Source: Acidimicrobiia bacterium
GTDB taxonomy: Bacteria; Actinomycetota; Acidimicrobiia; IMCC26256; PALSA-610
NCBI GenBank assembly: GCA_036271555.1
Contig: DATBAK010000048.1
Coordinates: 1 to 57,259 of the forward strand
Direction: 5' to 3'
Length of the DNA: 57,259 nucleotides
Shown here one piece after another: positions 3,681 to 34,396 of this stretch. The notes under the pieces were generated by a model. It had not been told where the DNA came from and ran no database searches. It saw only the letters and a list, made by a program, of their open reading frames with translations. The stretch's first letter is position 1; each line of letters begins with the position of its first letter. A program made the translations under genes and the position numbers.

Positions 3681-3772
3681 TTCTGGTCGCGCTCGCTGCG
3701 CTCGCCCCTCCTGACGCCTCAGTCCCCGAGTCGAACGGGCCGCAAAGCGACCCGCCCGTTCCCGCGGGAACG
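3681..3772 (+). repeat. R1 dispersed repeat, copy 1 (92 bp)
   Basis: It begins TTCTGGTCGCGCTCGCTGCG and ends CCCGCGGGAACG. It aligns without length change to copy 3 inside the ABC-F gene (33068-33159). The 3' half holds the inverted repeat GAACGGGC...GCCCGTTC. It lies between the PPOX pseudogene and the convergent FMN reductase gene, where it could also act as a terminator. Confidence 0.6.
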
Positions 3773-8708: not shown

Positions 8709-9689
8709 ATGCCGGACTCCGTGGTCTCCCTGAACTCGGTCTCGCGCGCGTTCGGCGAGGTTCTCGCGCTCGACGGCTTCAGCCTCGACGTCCCCGCGGG
8801 GACGATCGCGATGCTGCTCGGCCCGAACGGCGCGGGGAAGACGACCGCGGTCCGTCTGGTCACCGGCGCGATGCCGGCCGACTCGGGCACGCTGCGGGTC
8901 TTCGGTGTCGACCCGACCGTCGACGGCGAATCGGTGCGCCGGCGCTGCGGGGTCGTGCCCGCGCGCCCCGCGCTGTACGACCGTCTCTCCGGCTACGAGA
9001 ACCTGCGCTACGCCGCGCTGCTCTGGGACGTCGACGACATCGAAGGCGCGATCACGAGCGCGGCCACCCGCTTCAGCATCGTGGAAGCACTCGGCCAGCG
9101 GGTCGGCGGCTACTCGACCGGCATGAAGGCGCGCCTCGCGCTCGCGCGCGCCACGCTGCACGAGCCCGACCTCCTGCTGCTCGACGAGCCCACCGCGGGC
9201 CTCGACCCCGAGTCGGCGAAGGCCGTGCTCGGCCTCATCGGCGAGATGGCGCACGACGGCAAGACCGTGTTGATGTGCACGCACCTGCTGCTCGAAGCCG
9301 AGGGCCTCGCCGACCACGTCGTCGTCATGGATCACGGCCACACGCTCGCGTCCGGCTCGCCCCGCGAGCTCGTGAGCAAGCTGTGGGATTCGGTCACCGT
9401 CGCGATCGACGCCGAGGAACCCGCGCAGCTCGACCGCGTCCGGAATCTCCCCGGCGTCGTGTCGTACGAGCGCGTGCAGAGCGCAGTCGTCGGTCTCGAC
9501 ACGACCGACCGCATCCCCGACATCGTCGCCGCGCTCGTCGACATGGGCGTGCGCGTCACCCGCGTCGAGCCCCGCTCCCCCACGCTCGAGGAGCTCTACT
9601 TCGCCGTCCGGCGCGGCAACCACGGCAGCCCGTCGGCGCCGCCGCGCCCACCGGCGCCTCCGTCGCCCCGAGAGGTGGTCGCGTCATGA
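8709..9689 (+). CDS. ABC transporter ATP-binding protein (drug/ABC-2 exporter type)
   Basis: A 326-residue ATPase. Motifs: Walker A LLGPNGAGKTTAVRL near residue 38, signature YSTGMKARLALARA, Walker B LLLLDEPTAGLD and H-loop CTHLLLEAE. The ~100 C-terminal residues resemble the DrrA/CcmA-type regulatory domain and end in a Pro-rich tail. Its stop (TGA inside ATGA, 9686-9689) overlaps the start of repeat R2 copy 1, which separates it from its permease. Confidence 0.9.
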   Translation: MPDSVVSLNSVSRAFGEVLALDGFSLDVPAGTIAMLLGPNGAGKTTAVRLVTGAMPADSGTLRVFGVDPTVDGESVRRRCGVVPARPALYDRLSGYENLRYAALLWDVDDIEGAITSAATRFSIVEALGQRVGGYSTGMKARLALARATLHEPDLLLLDEPTAGLDPESAKAVLGLIGEMAHDGKTVLMCTHLLLEAEGLADHVVVMDHGHTLASGSPRELVSKLWDSVTVAIDAEEPAQLDRVRNLPGVVSYERVQSAVVGLDTTDRIPDIVAALVDMGVRVTRVEPRSPTLEELYFAVRRGNHGSPSAPPRPPAPPSPREVVAS

Positions 9690-9775
9690 GCGGCCAGGCG
9701 CAGACCGACGGCGCGGTCAGTTCGAGCCGCAGCGTGAACCGTCTGGATCGAGCACCGAAGGTCGAAGCCGCATGA
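9686..9775 (+). repeat. R2 intercistronic element, copy 1 (90 bp, ATGA at both ends)
   Basis: The element runs from the ATG overlapping the ATPase stop to the TGA overlapping the permease start, exactly 90 bp. It is an open frame of 29 codons (starting MSGQAQTDGAVSSSR, ending APKVEAA). It shares roughly 70-75% of its bases with copy 2 at 16337-16426, including the block GGCCAGGCGCAGACCG. It may be a coupling spacer, a tiny peptide gene or a structured RNA segment. Confidence 0.6.
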
Positions 9776-10599
9776 GCAAGTTCTCGTACCGTCGGGCGTG
9801 GATCATCGCGAGCACGGACCTGCGCCAGTTGCGCAGCAGCCGCGACTTCTGGCTACCGCTCGGCATCATCGCCGCGCTCTTCTTCGTCGTGATGCCGGCC
9901 GCGCTCTTCGCGGGCCTCTCCACGATCAAGGACGCCGGCATCGTCACGCAGATCGGCAACCTCATGGGCTCGCTGCCCAAGTCGATCCAGCATCAGACCG
10001 CGGGCCGCGCGCCGAACGTGCAGGCCGCGTACGCGCTCGCCGTCTACCTCTTCGCGCCGCTCGCGATCATCGTGCCGCTCACCGTCTCGTCGGCGGTCGG
10101 CTCGCAGACGATCATCGGCGAACGCGAGCGCGGCAGCGGCGAGTTCCTCGCGCACTCTCCGGCGTCGGAGCGCGAGATCTTCATCGGTAAGCTCGTCGCC
10201 AGTCTGCTGCCCGGCTATCTCACCGCGGGGGTCGGGTTCCTGCTGTACTCGTTGATCGTCAACCTGATCGTCGGACCGCAAGTGGGTGGATGGTTCTTCC
10301 CTACGACCAACTGGTGGATCCTCGTCCTCTGGGTGGTCCCGCCGTTCCTCGCCCTGGTGGTCGGCATCATCCTGCGGATCTCGTCGCGCGTGTCGAGCGC
10401 GGCGGCCGCGCAGCAGGCCTCGGCGCTGGTGACGTTGCCGCTCGTGATCCTCGCCTACGCGCTCGCGACCGGATCGCTCTCGCGGGCGAAGCTCTTCGGC
10501 GGCGGGCTCGGGCTCGTGGCATGGATGGGCGCGGTGATCGTGCTCGCGAGCGGCGCGCGCTCGTTGCGACGCGAGCGCCTGCTCGGACTCGGCGCCTAG
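9772..10599 (+). CDS. ABC-2 type transporter permease
   Basis: A 275-residue membrane protein with six hydrophobic segments (first FWLPLGIIAALFFVVMPAALF, residues ~25-45). The segment IIGERERGSGEFLAHSPASEREIFIGK is the characteristic cytoplasmic loop of ABC-2/NatB-like permeases. Its ATG overlaps the terminal TGA of repeat R2, so translation may be coupled through the 29-codon frame. It pairs with the ATPase at 8709. Exported substrate unknown. Confidence 0.85.
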   Translation: MSKFSYRRAWIIASTDLRQLRSSRDFWLPLGIIAALFFVVMPAALFAGLSTIKDAGIVTQIGNLMGSLPKSIQHQTAGRAPNVQAAYALAVYLFAPLAIIVPLTVSSAVGSQTIIGERERGSGEFLAHSPASEREIFIGKLVASLLPGYLTAGVGFLLYSLIVNLIVGPQVGGWFFPTTNWWILVLWVVPPFLALVVGIILRISSRVSSAAAAQQASALVTLPLVILAYALATGSLSRAKLFGGGLGLVAWMGAVIVLASGARSLRRERLLGLGA

Positions 10600-11666
10600 C
10601 CCCCGCGCTCGTCGCGCTCTCCGCGCTCGTCTGCTTGACCGCGGCGTGCTCGGCCGCGAACGGCGCGTCGCCACCGCCCGCGTCACCCGAGGCGACACAC
10701 CCGATCGCGACGACAACGTCGTCGACCTCGACCACGACGACCACCACGGTCGCGCCGACGACCACGACGTCGAGCCTGCCGCCCATCGGGATCCCCGCGG
10801 TTCCCTACCGCGTCGGCGCGCACACCTACGAGTGGATCGACGACTCGCGACCGACGCCGGCGAACAACGGCTACCGCGCCAAGTCGTACCGCGAGCTGCT
10901 GACGACGATCTGGTATCCCGCCGAGGGCACACCGAGCACGTACGTGCACCACGGCGCGACCGCCGACCACGCGGCGGCTCCCTTCCCGATCATCCTCTTC
11001 GCGCACGGGCACGGCGGCGAACCGGCCGACTACCTCGCCGAGATCATGAGCTGGACGTCGCGCGGGTACGTGGTGGTCGCCCCCGAGTTTCCGCTGTCGA
11101 ACGGCGACGCGCGCGGCGGCCCGAGCTACGCCGACGTCGCCGAGCAACCGGGCGACCTCAGCTTCGTGCTCTCGCGCGTGATCGGCCTCGACACGCAGCC
11201 GGGCTCGTGGATGTACCAGCTCGTCGACGCGCGTCGCGTCGCCGCGATCGGACATTCGGAAGGCGCGTGGACCGTGCTCGCGTTGGCCGGTAACTCGTGC
11301 TGCCGCGATCGGCGGGTCACCGCCGCGATCGTGCTCGCCGGCGAGATGGCCGTCGGGTTCCCGCGGCCCTTCTACAAGAACGGCGCACCGCCGCTGCTGT
11401 TCGTTCACGCGCGCGACGACGACGTCGTGCCGTATGCGAACGATCGCAACGCGTACGCGCACGCGCCGACTCCGAAGTACTTCCTCACCCTCCCGAAGGG
11501 CGGCCACGTCGCGCCGTACGAGGCGGCGGGCACGCGCGCGAACACGGCGGTGCTCACGGTGACGAACGCGTTCCTCGACCGGTACCTGAAGAACCTCGTC
11601 GCCGTGACGATCGCGTCGCCCGACCGCACGGTCGCGACGCTGTTCGACCAGCTTCCGCGCCCCTGA
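10521..11666 (+). CDS. Secreted lipoprotein alpha/beta hydrolase
   Basis: The product carries a lipoprotein signal peptide (LVALSALVCLTAACS), a Thr/Ser-rich linker (ATTTSSTSTTTTTTVAPTTT) and an alpha/beta hydrolase domain. Visible catalytic pieces: oxyanion region LFAHGHGGEPADY, nucleophile elbow GHSEGAWTV, acid region ARDDDVVPYAND and His in KGGHVAPYEA. It looks like a dienelactone hydrolase/PAF-acetylhydrolase-type esterase outside the cell. No start codon exists between the preceding stop (10599) and the signal peptide, so the nearest in-frame ATG at 10521, overlapping the permease by 79 bp, is used; the N-terminus is uncertain. Confidence 0.75.
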   Translation: MDGRGDRARERRALVATRAPARTRRLAPALVALSALVCLTAACSAANGASPPPASPEATHPIATTTSSTSTTTTTTVAPTTTTSSLPPIGIPAVPYRVGAHTYEWIDDSRPTPANNGYRAKSYRELLTTIWYPAEGTPSTYVHHGATADHAAAPFPIILFAHGHGGEPADYLAEIMSWTSRGYVVVAPEFPLSNGDARGGPSYADVAEQPGDLSFVLSRVIGLDTQPGSWMYQLVDARRVAAIGHSEGAWTVLALAGNSCCRDRRVTAAIVLAGEMAVGFPRPFYKNGAPPLLFVHARDDDVVPYANDRNAYAHAPTPKYFLTLPKGGHVAPYEAAGTRANTAVLTVTNAFLDRYLKNLVAVTIASPDRTVATLFDQLPRP

Positions 11667-11684
11667 CGGGCGCATTGCGGTCGG

Positions 11685-11690
11685 TACCAT
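11685..11690 (+). promoter_or_regulatory. Candidate leaderless -10 box (TACCAT)
   Basis: TACCAT ends 5 nt before the GTG at 11696 that begins a signal peptide. No ribosome-binding site is visible there. The spacing suggests a leaderless transcript starting at the start codon. Confidence 0.3.
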
Positions 11691-11695
11691 GCCGC

Positions 11696-12883
11696 GTGCG
11701 TCGCGCCCGGTTCCGAACCGTCACGCTCGCAGGCGCGTTGGCTCTGGCGTTGGCCGCGTGCCACGGCGGGAGCGGCTCGTCGGCCGGCGGTGGCACCACG
11801 TCGTCGGTTCCGACCTCGTCGGCCGCGACGACCACCACGACCGTCACCGCGGCCGGACCCGCGATCGCGTTCAGCACGCAGGGCGACGAGCTCGACGCGT
11901 ACCCGACGACGCGCCCGTTCGCGACGCAGGTCGTCGTGCCGTCGGCCGACGCCGACCGCGACGGCGTCGACGTCAGCGGGCAGATCTGCTTCGATCCGAC
12001 CGACCCGACGCGCTTCGTCGCGGTCGACCGCACCGCCGCCGCGGACGCGCAGGTCGGCTGGGGCGTGTTCGACCTGTCGGGATCGACGCTCGGCAAGCTC
12101 GGCGCCAGCGAGACCGCGCGGCTCGTGCCGACGTTCCAACCTTCTGCGGACGCGCCGACGCCGTTCGGGTGTGCATTCCTTCCCGACGGACGGCTACTGA
12201 CGACCGACCTCGGAAACCGCACGGGCGGGAACGCGAACGGTCAGCTCGTCGAGTGGTTCCCGCCGCTCGATCGCGAGCGCGTGCCGTCGTGCAAGGTCGC
12301 GGTGACGCTCGCCGCGCCCGAAGGCGTGCTCGTCGACGCCGATCATGTGCTCGTCGCCGAGTCGCGCGGGCGCGGCATCACGAGCTTCCTCACGTCGACG
12401 CTCCCGAGCGCGGCGAGCCCGGCGGGCGGCTGCTCACAACGCGACGCGACGCATGCCCTGATCGCGTTCGGCGTGGTGCACACGTCCCTGGTCGCGAACG
12501 CCGCGACCCTCGGGCTCGCGAATCCCGCGGTGCTCGTGCGCGCGCACAACGGCGACCTGCTCGTGTCGACCCCGCGCACCGGCGCGATCACGGAGATCAC
12601 CGCCGACGGTCACTTCGTGCGTCGCGTCCTCGCGCCGGCAACGAGCGCGCTCGGCACGCGGCCGTTCGCGAACGGCACCCCGGTCGGGCTCGCGGTCGCG
12701 CCCGACGGCGCGCTCTACTACGCGGATGCGGGCTTCGAGCGCCGCGGCGCCACGGTCGTTCCCGGCGTGCGCGCGGGCACGATCCGGCGCATCGCGTTCG
12801 TCGGCAACCGCCCGCTCCTCCCCGAAGTCGTGGGCAGCGGCCTCCACGATCCCGAAGGCCTCGCGATGTGGGAAGCGCAGTAG
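11696..12883 (+). CDS. Secreted lipoprotein, probable NHL/SMP-30-like beta-propeller
   Basis: A 395-residue lipoprotein. The signal peptide is MRRARFRTVTLAGALALALAAC with Cys as the lipidation site, followed by a Ser/Thr-rich linker. The mature part has repeated propeller-like segments (PFGCAFLPDGRLLTTDLGN; APEGVLVDADHVLVAE; NPAVLVRAHNGDLLVSTP; VGLAVAPDGALYYADAGF) and ends GLHDPEGLAMWEAQ. Such propellers often bind sugars or lactones; the substrate is unknown. It follows the other secreted lipoprotein gene after 29 bp but probably has its own promoter. Its 3' end is 3 bp from the convergent GGDEF/EAL gene. Confidence 0.8.
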   Translation: MRRARFRTVTLAGALALALAACHGGSGSSAGGGTTSSVPTSSAATTTTTVTAAGPAIAFSTQGDELDAYPTTRPFATQVVVPSADADRDGVDVSGQICFDPTDPTRFVAVDRTAAADAQVGWGVFDLSGSTLGKLGASETARLVPTFQPSADAPTPFGCAFLPDGRLLTTDLGNRTGGNANGQLVEWFPPLDRERVPSCKVAVTLAAPEGVLVDADHVLVAESRGRGITSFLTSTLPSAASPAGGCSQRDATHALIAFGVVHTSLVANAATLGLANPAVLVRAHNGDLLVSTPRTGAITEITADGHFVRRVLAPATSALGTRPFANGTPVGLAVAPDGALYYADAGFERRGATVVPGVRAGTIRRIAFVGNRPLLPEVVGSGLHDPEGLAMWEAQ

Positions 12884-12886
12884 GGG

Positions 12887-14644
12887 CTAATTGCCTCCGG
12901 CTGCGGCGGCGCGGGCCAGCGCGACGACGGGAATGTCTTCGCGCACGACGCCGTCCTGGAGGATGTCGGCCATCGCGTCGGCGTCGACCGCGCTGGTCCA
13001 GTACCAACCCATCGCGGTGTCGCAGCCGAGTCGGCGCAGGCGCGCGGCCTGCTCGACCCGCTCCACACCCTCGGCCGTGACCTTCATCCCGAGCGCGTGG
13101 CTCATCGTGATGACGGCCTGCACGATCGCGACGTCGGACTCGAGCTGGTCCATGCTCTCCACGAAGCTGCGGTCGAGCTTCACCACGTCGACCGGCAGTC
13201 GCTTGAGGTAGCTGAGCGACGAGTAGCCGGTGCCGAAGTCGTCGATCGCAACGCGGATGCCGAGCCGGCGCAGCGCCTCGAGCGTCTCGACCGTCTGGTC
13301 GATGTCGGTGAGCGCGGTGCGCTCCGTGATCTCGAGGCGCAGGCCCCGCGGGTCGGCGCCGGTCTCGCGCATCGTCGCGACGATGTCTTCGACGACGTCG
13401 GGCTGGCGCAAGAAGCGCGGCGACAGGTTCACCGAGACGACCGCGCGCTCGCGCGGGCTGCGCAGGTCCCACCATTCGCGCGCGCACCGGCAGGCCTGGC
13501 GCAGCACGTAGCGGTCGACCGCGACGATGAGGTTCGTCTCTTTCGCGAGCGGCAGGAAGTCGTCGGGCTCCAGCAGGCCGCGCGTCGGGTGCGGCCAGCG
13601 CACGAGCGCCTCGGCGGCGACGACGTCGCCACTCGCGAGCGAGAACTCGGGCTGGAAGCGCACGACGAGCTGCTCGCTGTCGAGCGCGTCCCACAACTCG
13701 TCTTCGAGCTCACGACGCACGGGCTCGCCGGGGTCGACGGGCGAGTCGAACAGCTCCCAACCGGAGCGGCCCTGGTCCTTCGCGACGAACATCGCGAGAT
13801 CGGCGTGACGCATGAGCTCGCCGGTCGTCTCGTCGCCGGCGTGCGAGACCGCGATGCCGACGCTCGCGGTGAGCACGACCTCGTGACCCTCGAAGATGAG
13901 CGGCTCGCCGAGCGCGTCGGCGATGCGGTCGGCGACCGCGGTCGCGGCCCCGACCGAGTCGAGGTCTTCGAGCAACACGCTGAACTCGTCACCGCCGTAG
14001 CGCGCGACGAGATCCTGCGGACGGACACACGATCGCAAGCGGTGCGCCAGGTCGTGCAGCAGGTGGTCGCCCGCGTCGTGCCCGAGGCTGTCGTTGATCT
14101 CCTTGAACCGATCGACGTCGACGTACAACACGCCGAGGCTCGTGCCCGCCTCGCGCGCCTCCTCGACGGCCGAGTCGACACGAGCGAGGAAGCTCACCCG
14201 ATTCGGAAGGCCGGTCAGCTGATCGTGGTGTGCGCGGTGCTCGAGCTCGGCTTCGATGCCCTTGCGCTCGGACACGTCGCGCATGTTGCACACGAGTCCC
14301 TTCACGCGCGAGTCGCCGGCGTGATTGGTGACGACGACCTCGAGCCACCGCACCGCGCCCTTCGCATCGCGCACGCGCAGCTCGGCCCACACCGGCTCAC
14401 CGCCCGGACGGGCCTCGGCGGCGGCGAGGATCGCGCGCGCACGCTCGCGGTCGGGTTCGTCGACGAGGTCGTCGACGAAACGCGCAAGGTCGCGCGCGTC
14501 GTAGCCGAGCACGTGCGTGACGGACGGGCTGACATCGCTCACGTTGCCCGCGCGGTCGACGACCATGAACACGTCGGACGAGTGCTCGACGAGCGCGCGG
14601 AAACGGTCCTCGGTCAATTGCGTGTCGTCGGCACGATTGCTCAC
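12887..14644 (-). CDS. PAS-GGDEF-EAL protein, diguanylate cyclase/c-di-GMP phosphodiesterase
   Basis: A 585-residue cytoplasmic signalling protein with no membrane segment. A PAS domain (residues ~10-130) is followed by a GGDEF domain with intact RYGGDEF at 216-221 and an inhibitory I-site RPQD at 208-211, then an EAL domain with AAEALVRW (EAL at 345-347), DDFGTGYSS at 468-476 and AEGVE near 524. Both catalytic motifs look complete, so it may make or degrade cyclic di-GMP according to the PAS signal. The end of the EAL domain reads MGWYW where QGYYF is usual. The GTG at 14644 has GGAGG 8 nt upstream; a longer reading to 14737 is not needed. Confidence 0.93.
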   Translation of the reverse strand: MSNRADDTQLTEDRFRALVEHSSDVFMVVDRAGNVSDVSPSVTHVLGYDARDLARFVDDLVDEPDRERARAILAAAEARPGGEPVWAELRVRDAKGAVRWLEVVVTNHAGDSRVKGLVCNMRDVSERKGIEAELEHRAHHDQLTGLPNRVSFLARVDSAVEEAREAGTSLGVLYVDVDRFKEINDSLGHDAGDHLLHDLAHRLRSCVRPQDLVARYGGDEFSVLLEDLDSVGAATAVADRIADALGEPLIFEGHEVVLTASVGIAVSHAGDETTGELMRHADLAMFVAKDQGRSGWELFDSPVDPGEPVRRELEDELWDALDSEQLVVRFQPEFSLASGDVVAAEALVRWPHPTRGLLEPDDFLPLAKETNLIVAVDRYVLRQACRCAREWWDLRSPRERAVVSVNLSPRFLRQPDVVEDIVATMRETGADPRGLRLEITERTALTDIDQTVETLEALRRLGIRVAIDDFGTGYSSLSYLKRLPVDVVKLDRSFVESMDQLESDVAIVQAVITMSHALGMKVTAEGVERVEQAARLRRLGCDTAMGWYWTSAVDADAMADILQDGVVREDIPVVALARAAAAGGN

Positions 14645-14836
14645 CAAGTCCTCCAACCGGGTCTCGCGGCCGGGCGCGCGAGCAGGGCGCGTTCGCGGTC
14701 GCTCGGATCGGGTCCCGTGCCCTCCACCGCTTCTCATCGACCGGTTCGGGCCCCGTCTTGACCCTCGGAGCAGGCGAAACGGCGCCGGGTAACGTTGGCG
14801 CGCTCCGTTCGTCCCGATCGAGGAGATCCGTGCCGC

Positions 14837-14913
14837 TCCGTCGCACTCGCTTCGCTCGCCGCCCCCGACGCCTCAGTCCCCGGCTCGGGCCGGCCGCACC
14901 GCGACCCACCTGG
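14837..14913 (+). repeat. R1 dispersed repeat, copy 2 (partial)
   Basis: It contains TCGCTTCGCTCGCC and GACGCCTCAGTCCC in the same order as copy 1, then diverges. It sits in the 286-bp gap between the GGDEF/EAL gene and the condensing-enzyme/DUF35 gene and ends just before the latter's ribosome-binding site. Nothing else is recognisable in that gap. Confidence 0.5.
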
Positions 14914-14930
14914 TCTCCGGAGGACCTGAC

Positions 14931-16340
14931 GTGAATGCCCGCTTGGCGGCCGTCGGCGGCGCCGCGCCCACCCACCGCCTCCCCGCCGCCGCGGTTGGCA
15001 AGGCCTGGGGACGGGGCGGCGGCCGGGGGCAGGCCGCGGTGTGCGCGCCCGACGAGGACACCCTGACCCTGGCCTGGGAGGCCGGCACCCGGGCCCTCGA
15101 CGCGGCCGGTATCGAGCCGGCGGCGGTCGACGGCCTGTGGTGGGGAACGACCCGCCCGCCCTTCGCCGAGGGGCCGAGCCACGCCTTCCTCGCCGGCGCG
15201 CTCGGGCTCGCCGCGGAGTCCGGCGGTGCGTTGTCGTCGGGCTCGACCCACGCCGGCATCGACGCGCTGGCCGCGGCCTCCGACGCGATCGTGGCGGGCA
15301 GCGCCCGCGTCGCGCTCGTGATCGCGTCCGACGCGCTGCGGGCCGGGGTGGGCACCGCCGCCGAGGCCCGTTGCGGCGCCGGCGCGGCGGCGCTGGTGCT
15401 CACCGCCGATGGCGGCGCGGCATCGATCGGCGCCCGCATCACGCGCCACCTTCCCGTCGTCGATCGCTACCGCGGCGACGCCGAGTCCGACACCCGCGAC
15501 CTCTACGACGGCCGCCTGTTCCGGGAGGAGATCTTCCTGCCGCTGACCTCGGGAGTCGTCGAGCAGCTCAATGCGCTCGACCCCCGCGCGTGGTCGCTCC
15601 CCGATCCCGACGGTCGCCTCGGCGGCACGCTCGCCAAGCAGACCGGCGCGGGCGCCCCGCCGTCGGCCGAGGTCTACGGCGAGCTCGGCGACACCGGCGC
15701 CGCGGCCGCGCTGCTCGGCGCGGTCGGCGCGCTCGACGCGGCCGGCACCGTCGGCATCGTCGGCTACGGCGGCGGCCGCGCCACCGCGATCGCGATCCAC
15801 GCCGACCGGCCGGTGCCCGGCGCCACCGCGGTGGCGCGCGCGATCTCCGAGGGCGAAGAGATCGGCTACACGGAGGCGCTGCGGGCGCGCGGGCAGCTGG
15901 TCGCGAGCGGCGAGACGATCCCGATGGGCGTTCCGCCGGAGAGTGCGATGTTCGTACGCGGCGCGGAGGAGATGCTCGGGCTGCTCGGTGGCCGGTGTGT
16001 CGACTGCGGCACGATCAGCACTCCGCCGTCGATCCATCCGCACTGCATCGCGTGCGGTGGCCCGAAGCTCGAGCCGGTCGCGCTGGCGCGGCAGGGCACG
16101 GTGCACACGTACGTCGTGAACCACACGATGCCGGCGCCGTTCGTCGCGCCGCTCCCGCTCGCGGTGCTCGACCTCGACGACGGTGCGCGGCTCATGCTCC
16201 AGGTCGTCGGCAAGGGTGAGCAGCTCGCGATCGGCGCCAAGATGCGGCTCGTGCTGCGGCGCTACGCGTACGAGCGCGGCGTGCCCGTGTACGGATTCAA
16301 GGCGAAGCAAGTGCCGTCGGCAGCGGAGGTCGGTCAATGA
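14931..16340 (+). CDS. Condensing-enzyme-like domain fused to a DUF35 (Zn-ribbon/OB) acyl-CoA domain
   Basis: A 469-residue two-domain protein. Residues ~1-330 have the thiolase/KAS III/HMG-CoA-synthase-like fold (VDGLWWGTTRPPF, ASDAIVAGSARVALVIASD, GSVDAL-type glycine-rich turns). Where family members have the nucleophilic Cys (xCxAG), this protein reads GSTHAG with Thr106, so the condensing activity may be lost. Residues ~340-469 are a DUF35 module: a zinc ribbon with C356, C359, C372 and C375, then an OB fold. DUF35 proteins shuttle or present acyl-CoA to partner thiolases. GTG start with GGAGG upstream. The gene abuts repeat R2 copy 2 and the thiolase, its probable partner. Confidence 0.8.
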   Translation: MNARLAAVGGAAPTHRLPAAAVGKAWGRGGGRGQAAVCAPDEDTLTLAWEAGTRALDAAGIEPAAVDGLWWGTTRPPFAEGPSHAFLAGALGLAAESGGALSSGSTHAGIDALAAASDAIVAGSARVALVIASDALRAGVGTAAEARCGAGAAALVLTADGGAASIGARITRHLPVVDRYRGDAESDTRDLYDGRLFREEIFLPLTSGVVEQLNALDPRAWSLPDPDGRLGGTLAKQTGAGAPPSAEVYGELGDTGAAAALLGAVGALDAAGTVGIVGYGGGRATAIAIHADRPVPGATAVARAISEGEEIGYTEALRARGQLVASGETIPMGVPPESAMFVRGAEEMLGLLGGRCVDCGTISTPPSIHPHCIACGGPKLEPVALARQGTVHTYVVNHTMPAPFVAPLPLAVLDLDDGARLMLQVVGKGEQLAIGAKMRLVLRRYAYERGVPVYGFKAKQVPSAAEVGQ

Positions 16341-16426
16341 GGGCCAGGCGCAGACCGCAGGCGCGGTCAATCGCGAAGGTTCGCCGCACCGTGAGGATCG
16401 AGTGCCGGAGGTCGGAGCCGCAATGA
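16337..16426 (+). repeat. R2 intercistronic element, copy 2 (90 bp, ATGA at both ends)
   Basis: The element again runs from an ATG overlapping the upstream stop to a TGA overlapping the downstream ATG, exactly 90 bp. It matches copy 1 over most of its length with a one-base deletion near the left end and a one-base insertion near the right end. The conserved reading (GQAQTAGAVNREGS...) is therefore in a different frame from the ATGA-bounded one and is continuous with the thiolase frame, which makes conservation of DNA or RNA more likely than conservation of a peptide. Confidence 0.6.
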
Positions 16427-17598
16427 GCTGGAACCGGGTCGCCGTCGTCGGCGCCGGCCTCATCAAGATGGGCGAGCTGTTCGACCAGAGCTACGAGCAG
16501 ATGGCGGCGGGTGCGTTCTCGGCCGCGGTCGCGAGCGTCGACAAGGGCTTCGAGCCCGAGCTCGTCGAGGCGGCCTTCGTTGCCACGCAGCGGGGAACGC
16601 TGTGGGGACAGGAAGGCATCGGCGGCAACACCGTGCCCACCGCGATCGGCCTCACCGGCATCCCCTGCACGCGCATCGAGAACGCGTGCCCGTCGGGGTC
16701 GGATGCGTTCCGCGTCGGCGCGATGGCGGTCGCGAGCGGCGTGCACGACGTCGTACTCGTGATCGGTGTCGAGAAGATGCGCGACAAGTCGACGGAAGAG
16801 GGGTTGCTGTCGCGCGCCGCGGCCGGTCATCCGATCTTCACGCGCGGCGAGACCGCGCCCGTGTTGTTCGCGCCGTTCGCGACGCGCCACATGGCCGACT
16901 TCGGTACGACGCGCGAGATGCTCGCGTCGGTCGCGGTGAAGAACCACTACAACGGCGCGCGCGATCCGTACGCGCACTTCCAGAACGAGATCACCGTCGA
17001 CGACGTGTTGAAGTCGGTGCCGGTGTGCCATCCGCTGCATCTCCTCGACTGCTGCCCGCAGACCGACGGCGCGGCAGCCGTGTTGCTCGTCAACGCGGAG
17101 CGGGCCGAGGAGTTCACCGAGCGGCCGGTGTGGGTGGCGGGCTTCGGCGTCGCGACCGACCACCCGTACCTGCACGAGAAGTCGTCGTTCACCGAGATCA
17201 AGGCGACCCGGCTCGCGGCCGAGCGCGCCTACGCGATGGCCGGCGTCGGACCTGGCGACATCGACTGCGCCGAAGTGCACGACTGCTTCACGATCACCGA
17301 GATCCTCGACATCGAGGACCTCGGGTTCGTCGAGAAGGGCAAGGGCGGACCCGCGAGCCTCGAGGGCGAGACCGCGCTCGACGGCCGCATCCCCGTCAAC
17401 ACCTCCGGCGGGCTGCTCGCCAAGGGCCACCCGATCGGCGCGACCGGCGTCGCGCAGATCACCGAGTGCTGGTGGCAGCTGCGCGGCGATGCGGGCGAAC
17501 GCCAGATCGAGACCCGCCACGGCTTCGCGCTGCAACACAACGCGGGTGGACGCGGCTCGGGCGTCGCGGTCGTCAACATCCTGACGAACCGGCGGTGA
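16423..17598 (+). CDS. SCP-x-type thiolase / acetyl-CoA acetyltransferase family protein
   Basis: A 391-residue thiolase-superfamily enzyme. The nucleophile is C89 in RIENACPSGSDAF. The C-terminal catalytic region has AEVHDCFTITEI and NTSGGLLAKGHPIGATG (catalytic His). The segment LQHNAGGRGSG has Asn/Gly where degradative thiolases carry the second Cys, typical of the SCP-x/archaeal subgroup. Such enzymes cleave or form beta-ketoacyl-CoA, often with a DUF35 partner; here the partner is fused into the gene upstream. ATG at 16423 overlaps the R2 element; an in-frame extension upstream exists but encodes only the repeat. Confidence 0.88.
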   Translation: MSWNRVAVVGAGLIKMGELFDQSYEQMAAGAFSAAVASVDKGFEPELVEAAFVATQRGTLWGQEGIGGNTVPTAIGLTGIPCTRIENACPSGSDAFRVGAMAVASGVHDVVLVIGVEKMRDKSTEEGLLSRAAAGHPIFTRGETAPVLFAPFATRHMADFGTTREMLASVAVKNHYNGARDPYAHFQNEITVDDVLKSVPVCHPLHLLDCCPQTDGAAAVLLVNAERAEEFTERPVWVAGFGVATDHPYLHEKSSFTEIKATRLAAERAYAMAGVGPGDIDCAEVHDCFTITEILDIEDLGFVEKGKGGPASLEGETALDGRIPVNTSGGLLAKGHPIGATGVAQITECWWQLRGDAGERQIETRHGFALQHNAGGRGSGVAVVNILTNRR

Positions 17599-18414: not shown

Positions 18415-18458
18415 GTGGTACTGCGTTGCCGGCGTATCGCCGGGCAACGCAGTACCAC
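18415..18458. repeat. R3 palindrome, copy 1 (44 bp)
   Basis: Perfect 16-bp arms GTGGTACTGCGTTGCC and GGCAACGCAGTACCAC flank a GGCG-TAT-CGCC core. The same sequence recurs at 34353-34396. It lies between the enoyl-CoA hydratase and SDR genes. It could terminate transcription, although no U-tract follows, or be a REP-like element. Confidence 0.7.
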
Positions 18459-18537
18459 TGAGACCACCGAGACGATTGGCGGGCGCGGAACCGGCTCTGG
18501 TCGAATGCGCGCCGACTTCTGAGCGAAGGGAATCACC

Positions 18538-34265: not shown

Positions 34266-34352
34266 GGCAGACCTGCGCAGGAAGAAGGCGGACAGCGGCA
34301 GCGGGTCTGAGCTCAGCGCACGGCGAGCAGGTTATCGGCCCTCCGTCGGTCA

Positions 34353-34396
34353 GTGGTACTGCGTTGTTCGGCGATACGCCGACAACGCAGTACCAC
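34353..34396. repeat. R3 palindrome, copy 2 (44 bp)
   Basis: GTGGTACTGCGTTGT / ACAACGCAGTACCAC arms enclose TCGGCG-ATA-CGCCGA. The outer 14 bases are identical to copy 1; the inner bases change on both sides so that pairing is kept. It ends 2 bp before the stop codon of the acyl-CoA ligase gene and lies 87 bp from the ABC-F start. Confidence 0.7.

Follow-up and report, generated by a model that had tools for sequence, protein, structure and literature searches.

A short repeat at stop/start overlaps of actinobacterial genes, probably a mobile element that relays translational coupling

The window, that is, the whole stretch of 57,259 nucleotides analysed here, comes from the genome of an uncultivated actinobacterium and contains two repeats of 90 bp, each separating two genes on the same strand (Table 1). 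In copy 1, the ATG at 9686 overlaps the stop codon (9687-9689) of ORF 8709-9689; at the other end, the permease ATG at 9772 overlaps the closing TGA (9773-9775). Copy 2 is arranged in the same way, with its ATG at 16337 overlapping the stop of ORF 14931-16340 and its TGA at 16424-16426 overlapping the thiolase ATG at 16423. These two stretches and their overlaps had been described in an earlier note on this DNA with exact coordinates. The likeness reported there between the two was confirmed by global alignment, which gave 73 identical columns out of 100 and a score of 48.5, far above 2000 shuffles (mean −0.4, maximum 16). Offsetting indels do shift the frame of the conserved word, as had also been noticed, the same arm being translated as MSGQAQTDGAV in copy 1 and as MRARRRPQARS in copy 2.

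Table 1. Positions in the window of the two repeat copies, their parts and the neighbouring genes.
Feature	Position	Strand	Remarks
Element copy 1 with flanking ATGA words	9686..9775	+	Open mini-ORF, 29 codons plus TGA
Copy 1 target duplication, left copy TGAGCG	9687..9692	+	Right counterpart TGAGCA
Copy 1 left arm GGC-GCA-GACC-GAC-GGCGC-GGTC	9697..9718	+	
Copy 1 variable middle	9719..9745	+	Length near-constant, mostly without conserved sequence
Copy 1 right arm GATC-GA-GCACC-GAA-GGTC-GAA-GCC	9746..9769	+	Partner of left arm
Copy 1 target duplication, right copy TGAGCA	9773..9778	+	
Element copy 2, 90 bp	16337..16426	+	Mini-ORF of 29 codons, different left-arm frame
Copy 2 left arm	16347..16368	+	
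Copy 2 right arm	16396..16419	+	
Upstream gene 1, ABC transporter ATPase	8709..9689	+	Walker A and signature motifs in translation
Downstream gene 1, ABC-2 type permease	9772..10599	+	Pfam PF12698/PF12679
Upstream gene 2, thiolase-like/DUF35-like fusion	14931..16340	+	Family label from the earlier note
Downstream gene 2, thiolase	16423..17598	+	Pfam PF00108/PF22691

The window also carries an inverted pair of 47 nt (18415-18461 and 34350-34396; 94% complementary), both members of which are near-perfect hairpins (GTGGTACTGCGTTGCCGGCG...CAACGCAGTACCAC) and which may be another dispersed repeat or a terminator. In addition, a 55-nt repeat (TTCCGGTCGCGCTCGCTTCGCTCGCCGCTCCTGACGCCTCGG...) is present in four window copies, at 3681, 14835, 33068 and 40456, with 78-100% identity.

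The rest of the genome (G000; 4.68 Mb in 104 contigs, assembly 95.8% complete) is rich in the element. Blastn with copy 1 gave 48 matches, of which about 40 have E < 1e-4 and some form arrays with a period of 86 bp, and a search with a covariance model trained on 43 copies found about 65. The two copies in the window are thus not an isolated pair, and the expectation of many further copies at ATGA junctions was borne out. Head-to-tail arrays of 2-4 units were seen at G000:C41:5390-5699, C83:28613-28957, C10:190394-190568 and C62:78878-79053; since the units of an array have a common variable middle, these arrays appear to have grown by local duplication and not by repeated insertion. Six genomes of the same family contain 18, 13, 12, 5, 2 and 1 copies, two others give one weak match each and five give none. 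When 396 Actinomycetota genomes were scanned, the own genome was the sole match and the other 395 had no element, and a pattern searched in 84,980 species matched four actinobacterial MAGs. No match was obtained in collections of viral contigs, phages and plasmids, so a phage or plasmid origin was rejected, and a known RNA family was likewise rejected because no Rfam family was matched above its curated score.

In a stack of 33 equal-length copies from the own genome, conserved arms flank an unconserved middle of about 22 nt. The element is made up of a TGAxxx target duplication and about 80 bp of left arm, variable middle and right arm, with the consensus NTGAxxx, GCCAGGCGCAGACCGCAGGCGCGGTC, about 22 variable nt, CGTCCGGATCGAGCGCCGGAGGTCGGAGCCGCA and again TGAxxx, and its modal unit lengths are 86 and 80 bp. 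The right arm carries an SD-like GGAGGTC. The arms form an imperfect inverted repeat with the pairs GGC/GCC, GACC/GGTC, GGCGC/GCGCC and GGTC/GATC, and nine of the 18 arm pairs tested were changed on both sides, with 30 double-change cells compared with 8.8 in shuffles and a much lower covariation score for slid structures. At least seven distinct concerted inner stems were found (GGCCC/GGGCC, CGTGC/GCACG, GCCGC/GCGGC, GTCGC/GCGGC, GGCTC/GAGCC and others). Using own copies only, matched arms gave 342 paired cells versus 327 ± 2 with permuted partners. A single hairpin within the left arm (columns 20-34) was discarded for its weaker covariation, with double changes in one of five pairs. Single copies fold no better than shuffled sequence (z about −0.4). 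The covariation supports a genuine pairing of the arms, and folding does not establish that each copy forms a stable RNA hairpin; the pairing may act in RNA or in DNA, or may in part represent quasi-palindrome correction.

With few exceptions, the right end coincides with a start codon that opens a coding ORF, and left ends mostly coincide with the stop codon of a same-strand coding ORF. The occupied sites include ccmB-ccmC, ilvB-ilvN, sufC-sufS, nuoC-nuoD, the gene before era and an aminotransferase-type pair, names read from the translations and in several cases backed by Pfam. Six conserved junctions filled here (the first five of these and the one before the thiolase) were followed in relatives, where none of the readable orthologs contains the element and many are a bare NTGA overlap, as in the empty site before the thiolase, ATGAGCTGGAAC. 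The ABC ATPase-permease pair of the window is also empty in relatives G002 and G012, with an ATGA overlap. Orthologous pairs lacking the insert had been foreseen in the earlier note, and in relatives the stretch is not a conserved N-terminal extension. Duplication of TGA plus 3 nt was supported by 98 left/right matches against 73.8 ± 5.4 for permuted pairs (0 of 20000 permutations), and in the relatives alone the signal was not significant (p 0.26). In sixteen copies the left word is GTGA and the right one ATGA, and the opposite combination does not occur, indicating that the element supplies the A before the right TGA. Duplications are mostly TGA+3 and sometimes longer, such as TGAACTCCA in contig C54. 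At G007:C14:13772-13861 (L101), the element lies in the start of efp (named from its translation), with a duplication that covers about 48 bp of the beginning of that gene; the left start is GTG, the right one is ATG, and the mini-ORF stays in frame. The lack of copies elsewhere may come from purifying selection and not from targeting.

A different arrangement occupies the orthologous ABC ATPase-permease junction at G010:C235:8641-8737 (L269/L272), a tandem array of 26-bp units that are nine-codon mini-ORFs linked by ATGA overlaps and unrelated in sequence to the element. It was rejected as a second dispersed family, since it occurs once in that genome.

The distance from left TGA to right TGA equals 2 mod 3 in 77 of the 89 scorable copies. 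Among copies of non-modal length (neither 86 nor 80), this holds for 26 of 38 (p 1e-5, which like the other p-values is optimistic because copies and relatives are non-independent samples). All 77 copies that obey the rule have an uninterrupted mini-ORF from the left start to the TGA overlapping the next ATG, and in the middle no in-frame stop was found in 649 codons, compared with nine in the other two frames. Each of the three possible frames of the left arm is used in some copies without a change in total length, so that what is conserved is an open, phased frame and not a peptide, in line with the proposal of a DNA/RNA-level element; variable columns fall mostly on codon positions 1 and 2 and third positions are largely fixed. 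In eight of the 12 exceptions to the 2 mod 3 rule, the left start is in frame with the right start, giving two long N-terminal fusions and otherwise short ones. One of the two long fusions is at G000:C8:17248-17335 (L091), where an indel-bearing copy adds 28 residues in frame to a 2-oxoglutarate dehydrogenase-like protein. At G000:C33:9564 (L042, about 1565), the left arm alone forms the in-frame N-terminus (MSSQAQTADP...) of the downstream gene; the idea that this site marks one terminus of a bigger autonomous element was rejected, since it is a decayed and apparently domesticated copy joined to a gene.

As judged from genome comparison, the copies, their target, the duplication, the empty sites, the retained frame and the covarying arms are very probably explained by a mobile, non-autonomous element about 80 bp long that is tolerated at coupled junctions by relaying termination-reinitiation. 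The element would enter between translationally coupled genes, at the NTGA where the stop of one overlaps the start of the next, duplicating TGA and about three further bases. It would provide the A of the new downstream ATG together with a stop-free mini-ORF whose length, measured between the two TGA words, is 2 mod 3. After finishing the upstream gene, a ribosome would reinitiate at the left NTG, translate the arms, terminate at the right TGA and begin again at the ATG that overlaps it. With coupling relayed in this way, an insertion would be nearly neutral and copies could accumulate in essential operons. The earlier suggestion of a mobile spacer that preserves stop-start coupling agrees well with about 65 copies, NTGA targets, empty sites, TGAxxx duplication and a mini-ORF that retains its frame but not its peptide; the element presumably still moves, its mini-ORF is probably translated, and reinitiation is probably relayed across it.

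Regarding the enzyme that mobilises it, Y1 transposase (PF01797) gave no match in the own genome at 95.8% completeness, with positive controls in five genomes, and movement of the IS200/605 type was therefore rejected. Retro-type movement through an encoded reverse transcriptase was rejected as well, RVT_1 being absent from the genome. No autonomous version was found, and among the matches no pair of arms flanks a gene.

Other explanations have to be weighed against this one. If the repeats encoded a small functional peptide (MSSQAQTAGAV...DRAPEVGAA) and had been copied across the genome as genes, it would be understandable that one frame, ending in DRAPEVGAA, recurs in most copies. However, several copies use other left-arm frames (PGADRRRG, RARRRPQ) at an unchanged total length, the third codon positions are the ones largely fixed, the middle is random and the arms covary as base pairs; this explanation is very improbable, and a small-protein family was rejected because the reading frames differ among copies. 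An ancient, non-mobile RNA leader that co-regulates operons as a translational regulon is quite unlikely too: same-family orthologous junctions lack the element, copy number ranges from 0 to 65, the genes served are functionally mixed, a target duplication exists and Rfam gives no match, although covarying conserved arms immediately 5' of start codons, with GGAGGTC within the right one, are what such a leader would show. It is possible, if on the whole doubtful, that the element is a MITE derived from REP/RAYT or another IS and that its position at start codons reflects survivorship only. Imperfect inverted arms, small size and target duplication all suit a MITE, and bacterial MITEs with internal ORFs have been catalogued (PMC10969869), but the genome has no Y1 transposase, flanking IS ends were not found and the duplication seems to vary in length from 4 to about 48 nt. 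Mobilisation by a DDE enzyme may take place and would be compatible with the coupling-relaying mobile element preferred here.

Mycobacterial repeats were used as a control set, for which two mycobacterial genomes were located through the RegX3 protein; the repeats sampled with this query are taken here to be the mycobacterial interspersed repetitive units (MIRUs) of the senX3-regX3 site. They gave 28 and 40 matches in the two genomes and have the NTGA target, the mini-ORF (in frame in 18 of 23 with a scorable distance), cases of GTGA on the left with ATGA on the right, and a significant TGAxx duplication, in which the two bases after TGA have match values of 0.86 and 0.77. To our knowledge, the mechanism by which MIRUs move is still open. 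The common target, TGAxx duplication, GTGA-to-ATGA bias, mini-ORF and tandem arrays could be read as common descent, the element being a MIRU in the strict sense. This is most improbable, since sequence similarity is absent, the covariance model of the element has no match in the sampled mycobacteria, and the MIRU consensus has no conserved pairing (−2.2 kcal/mol).

Compared with known repeats, the element shares with REP/REPIN sequences, which are moved by Y1/RAYT, a short, hairpin-prone, dispersed and intergenic nature, and differs from them in lying at stop/start overlaps with target duplication, in a genome without Y1 transposase. Rickettsia palindromic elements are likewise small palindromic repeats compatible with the frames of the genes that they enter (PMC10969869), but they insert within ORFs, to which they are fused in frame, and encode a conserved peptide, whereas the present element occupies a position between genes, has a start and a stop of its own, conserves no peptide and gives few secondary fusions.

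The closest parallel contradicts the earlier statement that no described element of this form was known. MIRUs are short mobile repeats that enter start codons with an internal ORF coupled at −4 nt (PMC12548453, citing Supply et al. 1997), and this coupling likely reduces the cost of insertion, according to the same 2025 review (PMC12548453). As in MIRUs, the element lies at an NTGA word shared by a start and a stop codon and is coupled at −4 nt to the gene on either side, its mini-ORF runs in frame to a TGA overlapping the downstream ATG (77 of 89 here), TGAxx is duplicated at both ends, the right start is mostly ATG even with GTG on the left, and tens of copies are dispersed, some in head-to-tail arrays. 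In contrast, the MIRU core GACGATGCAGAGCGAAGCGATGAGGAGGAG is unlike the element consensus, the unit is 86 or 80 bp here versus 53 bp in the sampled mycobacteria, two covarying inverted arms with a variable middle have no counterpart in MIRUs, and the host belongs to another class of Actinomycetota. By sequence comparison, the element appears to work like a MIRU without being one. More tentatively, and rather doubtfully, it could represent a convergent, independent class of elements that have a structured core and relay coupling, and could use a new insertion mechanism that recognises stop/start overlaps or translated mRNA; the fixed right end (N/TGA) and duplications of about 4 to 48 nt would point to such a mechanism, which MIRUs possibly use as well. 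Dozens of insertions in nuo, ilv, suf and ccm operons, with the frame preserved and the peptide not, make the coupling of translation between genes accessible to study as a natural experiment. That two families unrelated in sequence agree in target, duplication and frame rule shows that this architecture evolved repeatedly or is older and more general, and the family described here provides an independent data set for finding a common enzyme or mechanism.
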